This document shows, one piece after another, positions 20,075-26,122 of a stretch of 64,000 nt of DNA. Below the pieces are notes generated by a model. The model had not been told where the DNA came from and made no database searches. It saw only the letters and a list, made by a program, of their open reading frames with translations. This DNA comes from Streptomyces albogriseolus (lineage in GTDB: Bacteria > Actinomycetota > Actinomycetes > Streptomycetales > Streptomycetaceae), in assembly GCA_014650475.1 (NCBI GenBank), contig BMVA01000005.1:62001-126000 (forward strand), read 5' to 3'. Made by a program: the position numbers and the translations under genes. Position 1 is the stretch's first letter. Each line of letters starts with the position of its first letter.

Positions 20075-21175
20075 GTGACGGAGCGATCGGGAGGCGGCGT
20101 GGAACACGGTGGCGTGTCCCGCGGTGCCCGCCTGGCCGCCCATGGTGCCGTTTCCGCCTCGCTGGCCCTGTGCGATGACCGCAGGTTACGTGAACTCGTG
20201 GACGCCGGGCAGCCGTTGGGCTCCGGCATCGGCGGAGAGCGGGTCCTGCTGGACGTCGACGGTACGCCGATCTTCGTCAAGCAGGTACGCCTGACCGATC
20301 TGGAGCGGCGGCCGGAGAATCTGCACTCCACGCGCAACCTCTTCGAGCTGCCGCTCTTCTGTCACTACGGAGTCGGCACGATCGGCGGCCCCGGCTTCGG
20401 CGCCTGGCGGGAGCTGGCCGCGCACCGCATGACGACGGACTGGGTGATCGCGGGGCAGTACGAGGGCTTCCCGTTGCTGCATCACTGGCGGGTGCTGCCG
20501 GACAGCGGCCGGCCGCTCCCCGAGGAACTGGCCGATCTGGAACGGGCCGTCGCCTACTGGGGAGGCGGGGCAGAGGTACGTCACCGCATCGAAGCGCTGC
20601 AGCGGTCCTCGGCGAGTCTGCTCCTGTTCATGGAATACCTCCCGCGGAACCTGCACGACTGGCTCGGTGAGCGGATGAGCGCCGACGAGGAGACCGCCGA
20701 GCGGGCATGCGCCATGGTGGACGACGAGCTGAGAACGGGCATCGCGTTCATGAACGCAGGCGGGCTGCTGCATTTCGACGCCCACTTCGAGAACATCCTC
20801 ACGGACGGCCGCCGGCTCTTCTTCACCGACTTCGGCCTCGCGTTCTCCTCTCGTTTCGAACTGGCGCGGGCTGAAGCGGACTTCCTCGAGCACCACCGCA
20901 TGTACGACCGGTGCTACGCCGTCACGCATCTCGTGAACTGGCTGACCGTGGCTCTGCTCGGACACGAACCGGAGGAACGCAGAGCGTTCGTGCGCGCGTG
21001 CGCGAAAGGGGTCCGCCCACGGCAGATGCCGACCGCGATCGCTGACGTGGTCGCGCGGTACGCGCCGGTCGCGGAGACGATGGGGGACTTCTGTCAGCGG
21101 TTCCGGACGGAGAGCCGGACGGTGCCTTTTCCGTTCGCGGCGGTCCGGCAGAGACTTGAGATCGCACGCGGGTAG
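20075..21175 (+). CDS. Protein-kinase-fold phosphotransferase (APH/kinase-like)
   Basis: The protein has about 366 residues from GTG 20075 (GTG 20099 is an alternative). The catalytic loop reads HFDAHFENIL (H233, D235, N240) and the metal motif DFG is D252-G254, with the lysine probably in the PIFVKQ strand. These are the marks of a eukaryotic-type kinase or aminoglycoside-phosphotransferase fold; the glycine loop is GSGIGGER. The target is unknown. The gene contains a TTA leucine codon at 20186-20188, the only one I noticed in the window, so its translation probably depends on the bldA tRNA. It lies in a likely operon with the S66 peptidase and CbrC. Confidence 0.8.
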   Translation: MTERSGGGVEHGGVSRGARLAAHGAVSASLALCDDRRLRELVDAGQPLGSGIGGERVLLDVDGTPIFVKQVRLTDLERRPENLHSTRNLFELPLFCHYGVGTIGGPGFGAWRELAAHRMTTDWVIAGQYEGFPLLHHWRVLPDSGRPLPEELADLERAVAYWGGGAEVRHRIEALQRSSASLLLFMEYLPRNLHDWLGERMSADEETAERACAMVDDELRTGIAFMNAGGLLHFDAHFENILTDGRRLFFTDFGLAFSSRFELARAEADFLEHHRMYDRCYAVTHLVNWLTVALLGHEPEERRAFVRACAKGVRPRQMPTAIADVVARYAPVAETMGDFCQRFRTESRTVPFPFAAVRQRLEIARG

Positions 21176-21810: not shown

Positions 21811-22080
21811 CTAGGGGTGTGTGCCGTCCGGGTTGCGGCCGGTGTCCCGGGTGGCGTCCGTCGGCGGGTGCTCCGTACGGCCCGGGATCGTCTCGCCCTG
21901 GATGACCCGGGGAGGCGTGTCCGTCGCCCGTTGTTCCTCCGCCTCCTTCATGGCGCGCGCCTCGGCCTTGAGGATGCGGGCCGACTTGCCCGCGTTGCGG
22001 GCCAGTTCGGGGCCCTTCTTGGCCAGGACGATCGCGATGACGACGATGAGGATGATGGCCAGTTCGCTCAGTCCGAACAT
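21811..22080 (-). CDS. TatA/E-like protein in the terD operon
   Basis: The 89-residue protein starts FGLSELAIILIVVIAIVLAKKGPELARNAG, a short N-out helix, hinge and amphipathic helix as in TatA, including the FG pair and the KKGPEL hinge. The C-terminal tail is charged and disordered. TatA oligomers form the passage of the twin-arginine export system. This copy has no tatC neighbour; it follows terD by 28 bp on the same strand, so it is probably a second, stress-expressed TatA. It would fall under the BlaI-type operator upstream of terD. It could also be a membrane protein with TatA-like form but another job. Confidence 0.82.
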   Translation of the reverse strand: MFGLSELAIILIVVIAIVLAKKGPELARNAGKSARILKAEARAMKEAEEQRATDTPPRVIQGETIPGRTEHPPTDATRDTGRNPDGTHP

Positions 22081-22108
22081 GGTCTCCCGCTCCCTCTGTC
22101 TCTCCGGG

Positions 22109-22684
22109 TCAGACGTTCACGCCGAAATCGGCGGCGATCCCGGCCAGGCCGGAGGCGTAACCCTGCCCCACGGCGCGGAACTTCCATTCGGCGCCGTGGC
22201 GGTACAGCTCGCCGAAGACCATCGCGGTCTCGGTGGACGCGTCCTCGGAGAGGTCGTAGCGGGCGATCTCCGCGCCGCCGTTCTGGTTGACGACGCGGAT
22301 GAAGGCGTTGCGGACCTGGCCGAAGCTCTGGCCGCGGTTCTCCGCGTCGTGGATGGAGACGGGGAACACGATGCGGTCGACCTCGGCGGGCACGGCCGCG
22401 AGGTTCACCTTGACGCTCTCGTCGTCGCCCTCGCCCTCACCGGTGAGGTTGTCGCCCGTGTGCTCCACCGAACCGTCGGGGCTGCGCAGGTTGTTGTAGA
22501 AGACGAAGTGCTGGTCCGACAGCACCCTGCCGGATGCGTCGAGAAGCAGGGCGGACGCGTCGAGGTCGTAGTCGGTGCCGGTGGTCGTACGGACGTCCCA
22601 GCCGAGGCCGACCAGGACGGCGGTCAGACCCGGCGCCTCCTTGCTGAGTGAGACGTTGCCGCCCTTGGACAGGGAAACTCCCAC
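22109..22684 (-). CDS. terD: TerD-family stress protein
   Basis: The 191-residue protein is a full TerD domain. It has the opening [19 protein letters not shown], the [21 protein letters not shown] core, the [15 protein letters not shown] calcium-binding loop, and the end [24 protein letters not shown]. TerD proteins bind calcium and are linked to tellurite, phage and oxidative stress resistance, and in Streptomyces to development. It starts at GTG 22684 behind an AGAAGGAGC site. A TCTACA-N4-TGTAGA palindrome lies 59 bp upstream. A TatA-like gene follows. Confidence 0.95.
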
Positions 22685-22742
22685 GGTGTGCTCCTTCTCG
22701 GCGGGTGCGGTCGGGCCCGCGGTTCGGGTACGGAGCTAAGAA

Positions 22743-22758
22743 TCTACATCACTGTAGA
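22743..22758. promoter_or_regulatory. BlaI-type operator between terD and blaI
   Basis: TCTACA-TCAC-TGTAGA: perfect 6-bp arms around 4 bp. It is in the divergent region of terD (59 bp upstream) and the BlaI gene (138 bp upstream). TACA/TGTA half-sites are known for the BlaI/MecI/CopY family. Near-copies occur at 24818 and 25904. Confidence 0.75.
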
Positions 22759-22895
22759 GATCACGGGGCAGGGCATGGGACCGTACGTCACGTGCGCCGG
22801 TTCCCGCGCCCGTACATGGCGCACGGCCGGACGGGCCGCGGGCGTCTATACGATGTCCGCGCGGGAAACGCACGGCGGCAGGAGGGAGACAGGAC

Positions 22896-23285
22896 GTGGG
22901 CGGGCAGCGGCAGCGTCCCCGGCGGCGGGGGCAGGGTGAGCTGGAGGCTCTGGTCCTGTCGGCGCTGAAGGAGGCCGACGGCCCGGCCACCGCCGGCTGG
23001 GTGCAGGAGCGGCTGGGCGGCGATCTCGCGTACACGACCGTGATCACCATTCTGACCCGGCTGCTGGCCAAGGGCGCGGTCACGCGGGAGCGGGCGGGGC
23101 GGTCGTTCGCCTGGACGTGCGCGCTGGACCAGGCCGGTCTGGCGGCCCGTCGGATGCGCAAGGTGCTGGACTCCGAGAGCGACCGTGAGGCCGTGCTGGC
23201 CAGCTTCGTGACCGGCCTCGGGCCGGACGACGAGCGGCTGCTGCGGGAGCTGTTGCGTCCGACGGGGCACGAGGGGGAAGACTGA
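22896..23285 (+). CDS. BlaI/MecI/CopY-family repressor
   Basis: The 129-residue protein has a winged-helix N-terminal domain of the Penicillinase_R family. It contains ELEALVLSALKEADGPATAGWVQ, the recognition helix region AYTTVITILTRLLAKGAVTRER, and a C-terminal dimerisation helix with FVTGLGPDDERLLRELL. Such repressors are released from DNA when an M56 membrane protease or its signal acts on them. The start is GTG 22896 after GGAGGGAGACAGG. The M56 protease gene follows by 6 bp. The palindrome upstream suggests autoregulation together with terD. Confidence 0.93.
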   Translation: MGGQRQRPRRRGQGELEALVLSALKEADGPATAGWVQERLGGDLAYTTVITILTRLLAKGAVTRERAGRSFAWTCALDQAGLAARRMRKVLDSESDREAVLASFVTGLGPDDERLLRELLRPTGHEGED

Positions 23286-23291
23286 AGCCTC

Positions 23292-24236
23292 ATGGGGGTC
23301 TTCGTCTTTCTGCCGCTGGTGCTGCCGCTGACGGCGTGGCCGATCGCGCGCCTCGCCGAGCAGCATCTGCATCCGCGCACGGCGACGCGGCTGCTGACCG
23401 GGGTGGCCGCGGTGATGGCGGCGTGCAGCACGCTCTGTCTCGCCCTGGTGATGGTGGTCGGCACCGCCCAGCTGCCCGGCAATCCGCTGCCCGACGGCTG
23501 GTCGGACCCGGAGGTGCGGGCGGCGGTGCCGTACGACGAGGTGGCGGGCAAGGCGGCGATCCCCGCGCTGCTCGCCGTGCTGGTCGTGTGCGGCCGGACG
23601 TGGTGGCGGCACGCGCGGGTGCGCCGTCGGGCCCATCGGGCGCTGGCGGGGCTGCGGGACACGGAGGTGGCCGTCCTACCGGACGGCGCCCCGTACGCGT
23701 ACGCGCTGCCCGGCGGCGGCCGGCGGGACCGTGTGGTGGTCACGACGGGTCTGCTGGAGTGTCTGGAACCGGCCGAGCGCCGGGCGTTGTTCGCCCATGA
23801 GCGGGCGCATCTGTCCGCCCGTCACCATCGCTTCCTGCTCACGGTCCGGCTGGCCGCGCAGGCCAATCCGTTCCTGCGTCCGCTGCGTACGGCGGTGTCG
23901 TACACGACGGAGCGATGGGCGGACGAGGACGCGGCGCGGACGGTCGGCAGCCGCCGTGCCGTGGCCCGTGCGATCGGCAAGGCGGCGCTGGTGTCCCGGG
24001 GCGCCCCGTCCGCCACGCCGGCCGGTCTGGCCGGTCTGGCCGCGGCGGGCCCGGTGCCGCGCCGGGTGGCCGCGCTGCTCGGGCCCGCGCCGGCGGTGCG
24101 CACATGGCCCTCGCTGTTCACGGCGGTGGGTGTCGCGGCGTGGGGCGCGGCCACGGGAGCCGTCGTGTCGGCGATGTCGTCCGCGAACTCCGCGGTGACG
24201 ATGGTGCTCATCCTGCACGCCGCGACACCGCTGTAA
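23292..24236 (+). CDS. M56-family membrane metallopeptidase (BlaR1-type sensor protease)
   Basis: The 314-residue membrane protein has helices at about residues 3-20, 34-58, 90-101 and near the C-terminus. The zinc site is H169-E170-xx-H173 (FAHERAHL), with a third ligand likely in TTERWADEDA (D211/E212). There is no extracellular penicillin-binding domain, so it is not a classical beta-lactam receptor; the signal is unknown. It is encoded 6 bp after the BlaI-type repressor, the standard pair. By analogy, activation of the protease would lead to loss of the repressor and de-repression of genes with the TCTACA palindromes. Confidence 0.92.
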   Translation: MGVFVFLPLVLPLTAWPIARLAEQHLHPRTATRLLTGVAAVMAACSTLCLALVMVVGTAQLPGNPLPDGWSDPEVRAAVPYDEVAGKAAIPALLAVLVVCGRTWWRHARVRRRAHRALAGLRDTEVAVLPDGAPYAYALPGGGRRDRVVVTTGLLECLEPAERRALFAHERAHLSARHHRFLLTVRLAAQANPFLRPLRTAVSYTTERWADEDAARTVGSRRAVARAIGKAALVSRGAPSATPAGLAGLAAAGPVPRRVAALLGPAPAVRTWPSLFTAVGVAAWGAATGAVVSAMSSANSAVTMVLILHAATPL

Positions 24237-24250
24237 CCGCTCATGACGTG

Positions 24251-24285
24251 CGGAGGGCCGGCACCGAGACGGTGCCGGCCCTCCG
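24251..24285. terminator. Bidirectional terminator between M56 and terB genes
   Basis: A perfect 16-bp stem (24251-24266 with 24270-24285) has a 3-nt loop and lies between two convergent stop codons. Confidence 0.9.
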
Positions 24286-24299
24286 TCTGCCGCGGTCGG

Positions 24300-24755
24300 T
24301 CAGAGGTCGAACTCGTGGGGCGGCAGGCCCAGCGCGTAGCACGCCTCGCGGACCACGGCCTGCTCGTCCTTGTCGAAGTCGCCGTCGGCGCCGCCGATGA
24401 CGATGCCGATCTGGATCACGGCCCGCGCCTCGGCGGGCTTCTTCTTCACCTTGGCGATCTCCTGGATGACGCTCACCTTGCCGAAGGCGAAGTCGGTGGT
24501 GAGCTTGTCCAGGTTGTCCTCGAAACGGCGGCGCAGGTCGTCGGCGGGGAAGTTCCGCAGCACCTCGTTGGTGGCGATGAGCTGGGCGACGCGTTGGCGC
24601 TCGGCGGGGTCGACGGTGCCGTCGGCGGCGGCGACGAGCGCGCACATCGCCATGCCGGCGTCCCGGAAGGCGCCGCTCTTCAGGTCGTTCTTCTGCGCCA
24701 TGAGCTGGGCCTGCATCGACGATGCGGACTCCTTGAGGCGGTCCCACAGGGCCAT
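24300..24755 (-). CDS. terB: TerB-family tellurite resistance protein
   Basis: The 151-residue all-helical TerB domain has its two acidic signatures, AAADGTVDPAE (about residues 42-52) and GGADGDFDKDE (about 121-131), which are thought to bind metal. TerB works with TerD and membrane partners in a stress-sensing complex. It starts at ATG 24755. The 5' region holds a strong hairpin (24778-24812) and, 63 bp upstream, a TTCTACA-N4-TGTAGAA palindrome shared with terD and spo0M. It is convergent with the M56 gene. Confidence 0.93.
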   Translation of the reverse strand: MALWDRLKESASSMQAQLMAQKNDLKSGAFRDAGMAMCALVAAADGTVDPAERQRVAQLIATNEVLRNFPADDLRRRFEDNLDKLTTDFAFGKVSVIQEIAKVKKKPAEARAVIQIGIVIGGADGDFDKDEQAVVREACYALGLPPHEFDL

Positions 24756-24777
24756 GGAAGCTCCGTACGTGTCGGGC

Positions 24778-24812
24778 GGGAGCCCGGACGGAAGGGGGTC
24801 GTCCGGGCTCCC
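24778..24812 (-). other. Hairpin in the terB 5' leader
   Basis: Perfect 13-bp arms (24778-24790, 24800-24812) around a 9-nt loop lie between the operator and the terB start codon. It could stabilise the mRNA or attenuate it; there is no U-tract, so it is not a clear terminator. Confidence 0.55.
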
Positions 24813-24817
24813 GGCGT

Positions 24818-24835
24818 TTCTACATTACTGTAGAA
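24818..24835. promoter_or_regulatory. BlaI-type operator upstream of terB
   Basis: TTCTACA-TTAC-TGTAGAA, perfect 7-bp arms, 63 bp upstream of the terB start. It is the best-conserved of the three copies. Confidence 0.75.
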
Positions 24836-24863
24836 GTTATCAGCGGAAGGGCGGATGTCCCGA

Positions 24864-25844
24864 TCAGCCCTCGTCCTCCTCGTCACCCTCGAAGAAGTCG
24901 CCGATCTCGTCGACGACTTCGGCGGCGACCATTCCGCCGGCGACACCGACGGCGAGGCCCGCGGCGCCCGCCGCGACGGCGGTGCCCATACCGGGGCCGC
25001 TCCGGTGGTGACCGCCGTGGTCGTGATGGTCGAGGTGGCCGGAACCGGCGTACGGGGCGCCGTGGTGTCCGGCCGCCGCCCGCTGCTCGATCAGCTGACG
25101 GACCCAGCCGTCCACTTCCGCGTTCCAGTCGCGGGAGTCGTGGTGGCCGACGGTGAAGCGGGTCAGCGCGTCGTGGCCGCCGGAGAGGAGACCGCCGCGC
25201 TTGCCGGCCTCCAGGACCACCTCGACGCCGCCCGGATCGGCCAGGAAGGTCACCTCGATCTCGTCGATCTGGTGGGCGTACTGGGGCGCCGGGGTGAGCT
25301 CGATCTCCTGGTAGAACGGCAGTCGCTGGCCGGTTCCCGCGATGCGGCCGTACTCGAGGTCGGCGGACCTGAACCCGAAGCCGAGCTGCCCGAACGCCTC
25401 GAGGATCGCCTCCTGGGCGGGCAGCGGGGCGACGTCCAGCGGGTCCAGGTCGCCCTTGTCCCGGGCGCCGGCCACCGCGAGTTCGGTGCGTACACCGAGG
25501 ACGACACCGAGGTGCTGCCCGTACAGTTCGGTGACCGGCGTCTCCCACGGCAGCGTCACCGTGAAGGGGACGCTGTGCCGCTGACCCGCGGCGAGACGGA
25601 AACCGCCGCCGACGGTGAACCGTTCGAAGGCGACGGCGCCCTCGCTCTCCCCCTCGTCGTGCTCGGCCTCGACCCGGGCCACCAGCTCCAGGGTGATGTG
25701 CTCGATGTCGAAGTCGGCCTGCCCGCCCTCGAGAAGGACCTGGCCGGTCAGTGCGCCACCGGGCCGGGCCGCTCCGGGGTCGAGGACCGTGTCGACCGTG
25801 AGGCCGCCCACACCGAGGGATCCGAGCAGTCGTTTGAACACCAT
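24864..25844 (-). CDS. spo0M: Spo0M/arrestin-like sporulation control protein
   Basis: The 326-residue protein starts with the Spo0M domain (MVFKRLLGSLGVGGLTVDTVL, through about residue 240), an arrestin-like beta-sandwich known in Bacillus as a sporulation control protein. The C-terminal third differs. It has a His-rich stretch (GHLDHHDHGGHH, possible metal binding), a glycine/alanine hydrophobic segment of about 25 residues that could sit in the membrane, and an acidic tail. It starts at ATG 25844 with an AAAGGAG site; upstream in-frame codons lie in the promoter. A TTCTACA-type palindrome is 60 bp upstream, as for terD and terB. Confidence 0.9.
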   Translation of the reverse strand: MVFKRLLGSLGVGGLTVDTVLDPGAARPGGALTGQVLLEGGQADFDIEHITLELVARVEAEHDEGESEGAVAFERFTVGGGFRLAAGQRHSVPFTVTLPWETPVTELYGQHLGVVLGVRTELAVAGARDKGDLDPLDVAPLPAQEAILEAFGQLGFGFRSADLEYGRIAGTGQRLPFYQEIELTPAPQYAHQIDEIEVTFLADPGGVEVVLEAGKRGGLLSGGHDALTRFTVGHHDSRDWNAEVDGWVRQLIEQRAAAGHHGAPYAGSGHLDHHDHGGHHRSGPGMGTAVAAGAAGLAVGVAGGMVAAEVVDEIGDFFEGDEEDEG

Positions 25845-25903
25845 GGCGGCGTCCACTCCTTTGTGCGTACGTGCGTGTGCCGGACCCGTCACCCGACGGG
25901 CCC

Positions 25904-25921
25904 TTCTACAGACGCGTAGAA
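25904..25921. promoter_or_regulatory. BlaI-type operator upstream of spo0M
   Basis: TTCTACA-GACG-CGTAGAA has one mismatch between arms. It lies 60 bp upstream of spo0M, the same distance as the copies before terD and terB. Confidence 0.65.
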
Positions 25922-26122
25922 GCATAGGGCGCGGCCCGCTCCGGAACGGCGTGATCAGGAACGGGTCGCCGGAAACGGCCGAAAACCCGCAGGCGCACGG
26001 CGCGGGGGAGGATCGAGCAAGAGCCGAGGAGGATCGTTGTTTCCCGTGAGCCGGCCGCGCGATTGCCTGGAGGTGTCACTTTCCGTACGGGGCTTCCGGG
26101 CTCCATGGCCTCAGGGAGGCAC

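Follow-up and report, generated by a model that had tools for sequence, protein, structure and literature searches.

Repressors of the BlaI/MecI/CopY family act at TACA/TGTA dyads, and their classical operator is TACA-N2-TGTA. In the BlaI–BlaR1 and MecI–MecR1 systems of staphylococci and Bacillus licheniformis, the gene for a repressor with the BlaI fold adjoins one for a membrane zinc protease, and such dyads serve a divergent target. Here we describe a locus of the same build in a 64,000-nucleotide stretch of Streptomyces albogriseolus DNA (assembly GCA_014650475.1, contig BMVA01000005.1, positions 62,001–126,000; 'the window' throughout). A blaI-type gene and a membrane metalloprotease gene on the plus strand are divergent from terD and a tatA-like gene on the minus strand, and are followed by terB and spo0M, also on the minus strand. 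We think it quite probable that a palindrome found before terD, terB and spo0M, TCTACA-N4-TGTAGA, is the operator of the BlaI-type repressor, which would control an envelope-stress gene set and be relieved by the protease. The locus departs from the BlaR1/MecR1 systems in that a penicillin-binding sensor was not found, Pfam classes the protease as M48-like, the dyad spacing is N4 and not N2, no beta-lactamase or penicillin-binding protein is among the targets seen, and in many relatives the operators are dispersed through the genome.

In Bacillus subtilis, YceC–E are TerD proteins, and control by sigma-W involves the anti-sigma factor RsiW. The sigma-W regulon resembles the set proposed here in its content: spo0M shows one of the strongest decreases of any gene when sigW is mutated, and the yceC–yceH operon is under weaker, secondary sigma-W control (PMC3498285). 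The means differ, in that B. subtilis uses a sigma factor where we propose a repressor cut by a protease. In Clostridium thermocellum, too, BlaI and BlaR1-type proteases control defined regulons of small size, but these consist, in the available part of the source, of the BlaI operons plus peptidoglycan or unknown genes, with no Ter or Spo0M (PMC8457756). The sigma-E regulon of Streptomyces coelicolor is also an envelope response, and includes LytR-CpsA-Psr (LCP) proteins (PMC6767563). None of the titles and abstracts among the matches listed in our literature search describes the present regulon; in the available parts of two further papers, BlaI occurs merely within an author name in the references (PMC12175524) or no relevant term occurs (PMC8265638). 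Each part is familiar by itself; what sets the system apart is the spacing of its operator, its proposed regulon and the pairing with a sensor-less protease.

Three palindromes at conserved positions before terD, terB and spo0M

The palindromes in the window are as follows.

22743..22758, operator 1, TCTACATCACTGTAGA, exact, 58 base pairs (bp) before the terD start (22684)
24819..24834, operator 2, TCTACATTACTGTAGA, exact, 63 bp before the terB start (24755)
25905..25920, operator 3, TCTACAGACGCGTAGA, one mismatch with the TCTAC...GTAGA arms intact, 60 bp before the spo0M ATG (25844)

At operator 3, CGTA stands where the exact sites have TGTA. A first-pass annotation of this DNA had reported a palindrome upstream of each of these three genes, at distances which agree with ours to within one base. 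When up to two mismatches are allowed, the window holds three matches against 0.16 expected, a number reached in none of 100 shuffles. Over the whole genome (8,066,392 bases) these are the only sites with at most one mismatch, and a reversed control pattern gives none. The signal fades at two mismatches, with 36 places for the palindrome versus 18 for the reversed pattern.

Conservation in orthologous loci had been named beforehand as a test of the proposal, and the proposal passes it. We assembled 81 loci, comprising the window and the best 80 (82–97% identical) of 266 confirmed close BlaI relatives, these 80 all from Streptomyces apart from one Kitasatospora; some of these loci end at contig ends. 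In their 1.2 Mb, TCTACA-N4-TGTAGA occurs 117 times, and the same arms with any other spacer from 0 to 12 do not occur at all. The TACA/TGTA dyad to which the first-pass annotation had tied BlaI is present in the exact sites at the target promoters, as TACA-N4-TGTA; the spacing is not the classical one, TACA-N2-TGTA giving 0 sites versus the 117 with N4. A wider definition (TCTAC-N6-GTAGA, or one mismatch with the A and T kept) gives 149 sites in 75 of the 81 loci. Only eight of the 149 fall inside genes called by a caller based on GC content at third codon positions, which, with the fixed distances to start codons, disfavours a coding or terminator role for the palindrome.

Matches to blaI and to the protease were found in all 81 loci, to terD in 46, to spo0M in 33 and to terB in 26. 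The gene order is variable, and the palindrome stays with the target genes: of the loci in which the gene was matched, those with a site before it number 45 of 46 for terD, 25 of 26 for terB and 27 of 33 for spo0M, and in 19 of the 81 the tatA-like gene lies directly behind a copy of its own. Median distances from site to start are 58 bp for terD (n = 45), 57 bp for terB (n = 25), 65 bp for spo0M (n = 27) and 51 bp for tatA (n = 19). For blaI the median is 76 bp, with a range of 28–514 bp in 70 loci. Counting genes which start no more than 350 bp behind a site, we find blaI in 54 loci, terD in 40, terB and spo0M in 24 each, the tatA-like gene in 19, CNNM/CorC in nine, an acyltransferase in six, LCP in five and a GlsB-like gene in four, besides rarer ones. 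The CNNM and acyltransferase genes, at 93–337 bp, may merely flank a site which serves another gene.

The position of the sites relative to likely −10 boxes is also conserved. The boxes in the window are listed here.

22741..22746, minus strand, TAGATT, likely −10 box of terD, overlapping operator 1
24834..24839, minus strand, TAACTT, likely −10 box of terB, sharing one base with operator 2
25921..25926, minus strand, TATGCT, likely −10 box of spo0M, abutting operator 3
22847..22854, plus strand, TATACGAT, box before blaI (likely the −10), separated from operator 1 by 88 bp

A TANNNT hexamer is found at the downstream edge of the palindrome in all 45 terD sites and in 15 of the 19 tatA sites; in this terD/tatA box (TAGATT), the last T alone lies outside the palindrome sequence. 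At terB the hexamer overlaps the palindrome by one base in 21 of 25 sites, and at spo0M it stands immediately before the palindrome, wholly outside the operator, in 27 of 27. No TTGAC-like −35 box was found at a fixed offset in a quarter or more of the sites. A repressor bound at this place would block a promoter, and judging from position the hexamers would be −10 boxes that BlaI covers.

The first-pass annotation had noted that the terD copy also lies upstream of blaI. It does so, and it belongs to the terD promoter. Autoregulation of blaI in the window is doubtful, because blaI has its own TATACGAT box, with 88 bp between it and operator 1; 56 of the 81 loci have such a box or a close variant of it, the median distance to the start of blaI being 49 bp. 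Autoregulation is not needed as the chief function of the terD site: where terD is displaced, the exact site nearest blaI sits at terD, some 410 bp away in L059 and more than 2 kb away in L039, and the DNA fetched for L040, L056, L074, L089, L096 and L100 lacks exact sites altogether.

The repressor, the protease and a proposed inducing signal

The genes of the locus are given below with their Pfam scores.

21811..22080, minus strand, tatA-like gene, 89 residues (TatA_B_E, 33.6 bits)
22109..22684, minus strand, terD, 191 residues (TerD, 293 bits)
22896..23285, plus strand, blaI-type repressor gene, 129 residues, GTG start (Penicillinase_R, 85.1 bits)
23292..24236, plus strand, membrane metalloprotease gene, 314 residues, HERAH motif (M48, 65 bits)
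24300..24755, minus strand, terB, 151 residues (TerB, 100 bits)
24864..25844, minus strand, spo0M, 326 residues from the ATG at 25844 (Spo0M, 262 bits)

The TatA_B_E, TerD, Penicillinase_R, TerB and Spo0M matches all exceed the Pfam cut-offs. The tatA-like protein falls below the NCBIfam TatA equivalog cut-off (51.4 versus 72 bits), and its gene, downstream of terD, probably forms one operon with it. Elsewhere in the window, at 20075–21175 and upstream of a UPF0167 gene, is a 366-residue protein with a weak protein-kinase match (25.3 bits, cut-off 31.7).

The curated Penicillinase_R cut-off (PF03965) is 22.6 bits, far below the score of the repressor. Its best solved relative is 2g9w (E = 1.2e-7), which we take to be the likewise actinobacterial BlaI of Mycobacterium tuberculosis (Rv1846c). 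The Phe of ASFVTGL in the window protein aligns with the Phe of HFVERVG in 2g9w, presumably the scissile position; Asn is absent there. The scissile bond described for BlaI is N101–F102 (PMC3305447). The published targets of M. tuberculosis BlaI differ from those seen here: blaC is among them and so is Rv1303, from the ATP synthase operon (PMC12565901). The S. albogriseolus genome has six BlaI-family genes, and the other five have no such palindrome within 450 bp upstream.

The protease had been annotated as M56. This label is ruled out as a plain family name by the Pfam cut-off, the protein scoring 13 bits for M56 (PF05569, cut-off 31) and 65 bits for M48 (PF01435, cut-off 20.3); by Pfam it is M48-like. 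Among aligned relatives at E ≤ 1, M48 matches 47 of 47 and M56 46 of 47 (best M56 value 1.1e-5). In line with the annotation, no Pfam match to a C-terminal penicillin-binding sensor occurs across the 314 residues, nor was a sensor domain of any other kind found. The protein gave a weak AlphaFold model, with a mean predicted local distance difference test score (pLDDT) of 66 and long helices at residues 28–58, 83–117 and 274–311, the last mostly below 50. Foldseek ranks Ste24/ZMPSTE24 and BlaR1 first, all at E > 0.01, and this weak model does not separate M48 from M56.

We propose that BlaI dimers bound over the −10 box or the start point would keep terD–tatA, terB and spo0M off and, in many Streptomycetaceae, would also shut unlinked membrane and wall genes. 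Upon envelope or membrane disturbance, the adjacent sensor-less membrane metalloprotease would inactivate BlaI, and the whole set would be induced. Alternatively, BlaI might be released by a small cytoplasmic ligand, for example a muropeptide, with the protease having another role or only clearing the repressor. A peptidoglycan dipeptide frees BlaI/MecI from their operators in vitro and is the proposed coactivator in B. licheniformis (PMC3305447), and the failure to find a sensor domain in the protease by Pfam would fit such a ligand. However, a protease match accompanies blaI in every one of the 81 loci and the HExxH motif is kept in all 62 protease relatives checked, so that we consider release by a ligand unlikely and retain proteolysis as the favoured step.

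Genes beside the palindrome across Streptomyces

Forty stretches around sites were fetched from 16 of 199 Streptomyces genomes, in a choice that favoured distal sites and distant BlaI. Behind trans sites, which lie on another contig or about 119 kb or more from BlaI, we find terB in L109, L116, L120, L122, L125, L129 and L140; in L116 there is a BlaI paralogue about 10 kb away. Distal sites also precede spo0M (L117), relatives of terD (L103, 42% identical; L114; L139), a GlsB-like gene (L111), a DedA/VTT gene (L118), an ion channel gene (L112) and members of a small family without a Pfam match (L123, L126). Not every site has an informative neighbour: the one in L106 is flanked by an alcohol dehydrogenase and, in the other direction at a distance of some 340 bp, by a terD relative. 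The envelope-type genes found beside sites are LCP, CNNM, DedA/VTT, PAP2, ion channel and GlsB-like genes. The occurrence of operator sites before terB, spo0M, terD, GlsB-like, DedA and channel genes suggests a response to envelope or membrane stress.

Further genes near operators deserve record. A family of about 72 residues (MASIDLDKVLDKAWADK...) is found behind an operator in each of four cases (L081:10880–11113, L123:4548–4799, L126:4797–5015, L128:9240–9461), and has no Pfam match in the two members searched (L081, L123) and no NCBIfam match in the one searched (L123). Another family, of about 215 residues (L052:7193–7846, L130:7272–7922, L106:6131–6967, L110:10509–11309), lies directly behind the operator and divergent from blaI in L052 and L130, the two members in which a Pfam search gave no match. 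One exact operator is followed, after about 110 bp, by an imelysin-like (Peptidase_M75) gene (L107:5085–6398).

Pairs of operators exactly 19 bp apart are seen in L104, L131, L170, L171, L181 and L199, and also at the L118 site. These tandem operators are mostly beside BlaI relatives 49–59% identical to the window BlaI; the relatives in L104 and L131 have a protease of their own. The tandem-operator loci are likely to represent a sister repressor–protease system. Three of them adjoin a PAP2 phosphatase gene (L131) or a DedA gene (L104, L118), and another PAP2 gene has a single site (L134). PAP2 and DedA proteins both have ties to undecaprenyl-phosphate recycling, and this strengthens the case for an envelope response.

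In its fullest form, our reading is that the Streptomycetaceae possess a dedicated envelope or membrane stress regulon, run by a sensor-less protease and a BlaI clade with a 2-bp-longer operator, which would unite Ter, Spo0M, TatA-like, GlsB-like, LCP, DedA and CNNM proteins and channels, would parallel the sigma-W regulon of Bacillus, and would have a sister tandem-operator system for PAP2/DedA genes. We put this wider scheme forward tentatively, with rather more doubt than confidence. The regulon could instead respond to metal, tellurite or calcium stress; the first-pass annotation had spoken of a Ter calcium/metal stress module. The family names of TerD and TerB point that way, as do the CNNM and ion channel genes beside sites and a paper, by its title as cited in PMC7244524, that ties the TerD protein SCO2368 to calcium homeostasis in S. 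coelicolor. The DedA, PAP2, LCP, GlsB-like and Spo0M neighbours nevertheless fit envelope stress better, and given these membrane and cell-wall genes a metal signal is the weaker reading and rather improbable.

Co-occurrence of the palindrome with BlaI

In the 199 Streptomyces genomes (194 of them with completeness of 90% or more and contamination of 5% or less), we counted exact sites regardless of genes and searched for BlaI separately, with at most 21 first-look candidates scored per genome. There are 333 exact sites versus six for the reversed pattern. The site is present in 41/43 genomes whose BlaI match has E < 1e-55, in 55/68 between 1e-55 and 1e-44 and in 17/18 between 1e-44 and 1e-35, and in a single one of the 44 with no BlaI match at E ≤ 1e-20. 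Taken together, 113 of the 129 genomes whose BlaI match is close (E < 1e-35) carry an exact site versus 13 of the remaining 70 (Fisher p = 1.4e-22, a value inflated because the genomes are related and the statistic ignores kinship).

A draw of 121 genomes from the family, in which 11 of the 28 Streptomyces are also among the 199, has the site in 88 genomes and 14 of 17 genera. All 88 are among the 113 genomes with a BlaI match, and none of the eight without a match has the site. Genera other than Streptomyces contribute 71 of 93 genomes with the site, which may there serve BlaI paralogues. In genomes of the class outside the family, the site occurs in 11 of 181 versus three for the reversed control, five of the 11 being in family f18; the system is thus mainly one of Streptomycetaceae.

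Proximity was assessed in 26 genomes, with G018 left out. Among the matches listed, a site lies within 500 bp of a BlaI gene in 17 genomes and within 6 kb in 23, and 26 of the 74 sites lie farther off or on another contig. Among the genomes with listed positions, five with two close BlaI copies (G009, G067, G099, G124, G196) have an exact site no more than 200 bp from either copy. The motif (CTACA-N4-TGTAG or TCTAC-N6-GTAGA, within 450 bp upstream) precedes 10 of the 11 BlaI-family genes that share 50% identity or more with the window BlaI, and none of the 20 at 28–47% identity. This count covers 31 of 36 BlaI-family loci, namely those with a tblastn hit, and leaves out 14 of 44 BlaI-family matches without an assigned locus. 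The 71% identical BlaI of G096 (L115), which falls outside it, has no site within 450 bp upstream.

TerB is matched at E ≤ 1e-30 in 26 of the 44 genomes that lack this BlaI, but with an identity of 76% or more in only five. In G136 (L142), which has no recognised BlaI orthologue, an intact operator lies 93 bp before terB, with a TCTACTCGCCTGTAGA site about 1 kb further upstream. G089 has a degenerate site with three mismatches 59 bp before terB, and G085 a four-mismatch resemblance before terB which could be chance; the terB orthologues of G058 and G112 have no site (for G112, in the 177 bp available). Decayed sites form the pattern that loss of the regulator would be expected to leave, with G136 as a real exception.

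Besides the inflation of the Fisher value, a number of observations weigh against our reading, in which binding, repression, proteolysis and the envelope signal are all predictions from sequence. An exact site is missing from 16 of the 129 genomes in which BlaI is close. It is present in 12 of 26 with only a distant BlaI (E from 1e-35 to 1e-20), and many best BlaI matches in the other genera are that distant, so that paralogues probably share the motif. The site nearest the G096 BlaI is at terB, 1.5 kb away. The imelysin-like gene at the L107 site has no envelope link, and the L108 and L119 sites have no called gene start within 350 bp. In the available main text of a study of the sigma-E regulon (PMC6767563), TerD, Spo0M, BlaI, tellur- and DedA are not mentioned, nor are terD, tellurium, BlaI or Spo0M in that of a study of cell-wall antibiotics (PMC3123327). 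For 12 of the 81 blaI genes, the 450 bp upstream contain no exact site (two of the 12 have one with a single mismatch), the second BlaI copies of G057 (70%) and G271 (79%) have none nearby, and G136 keeps its terB site with two BlaI-family genes which are not orthologues of the window BlaI. These last three points would also suit a different transcription factor reading the operator, with the blaI–protease pair a passenger; that is very unlikely, given that the site tracks BlaI over the 199 genomes, lies by each copy in the five two-copy genomes and separates close BlaI relatives from distant ones.

We therefore return to BlaI as the probable reader of the operator. The original interpretation is partly supported. 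The DNA side of the proposed regulon of terD–tatA, terB and spo0M is well supported, and the regulon seems wider than had been supposed, with membrane and cell-wall functions. Ter and Spo0M proteins occur widely among bacteria but have no settled function; in this locus a repressor and a membrane protease seem to govern these puzzling stress genes, terD–tatA, terB and spo0M, as a single regulon. The shared operator puts Ter and Spo0M together with wall and membrane genes, and so provides a testable setting for their role. A BlaI clade with its own operator spacing, paired with a protease without a recognised sensor domain, poses a concrete question of sensing. If the proposal is true, antibiotic-producing Streptomyces would have an envelope-stress pathway beside sigma-E.

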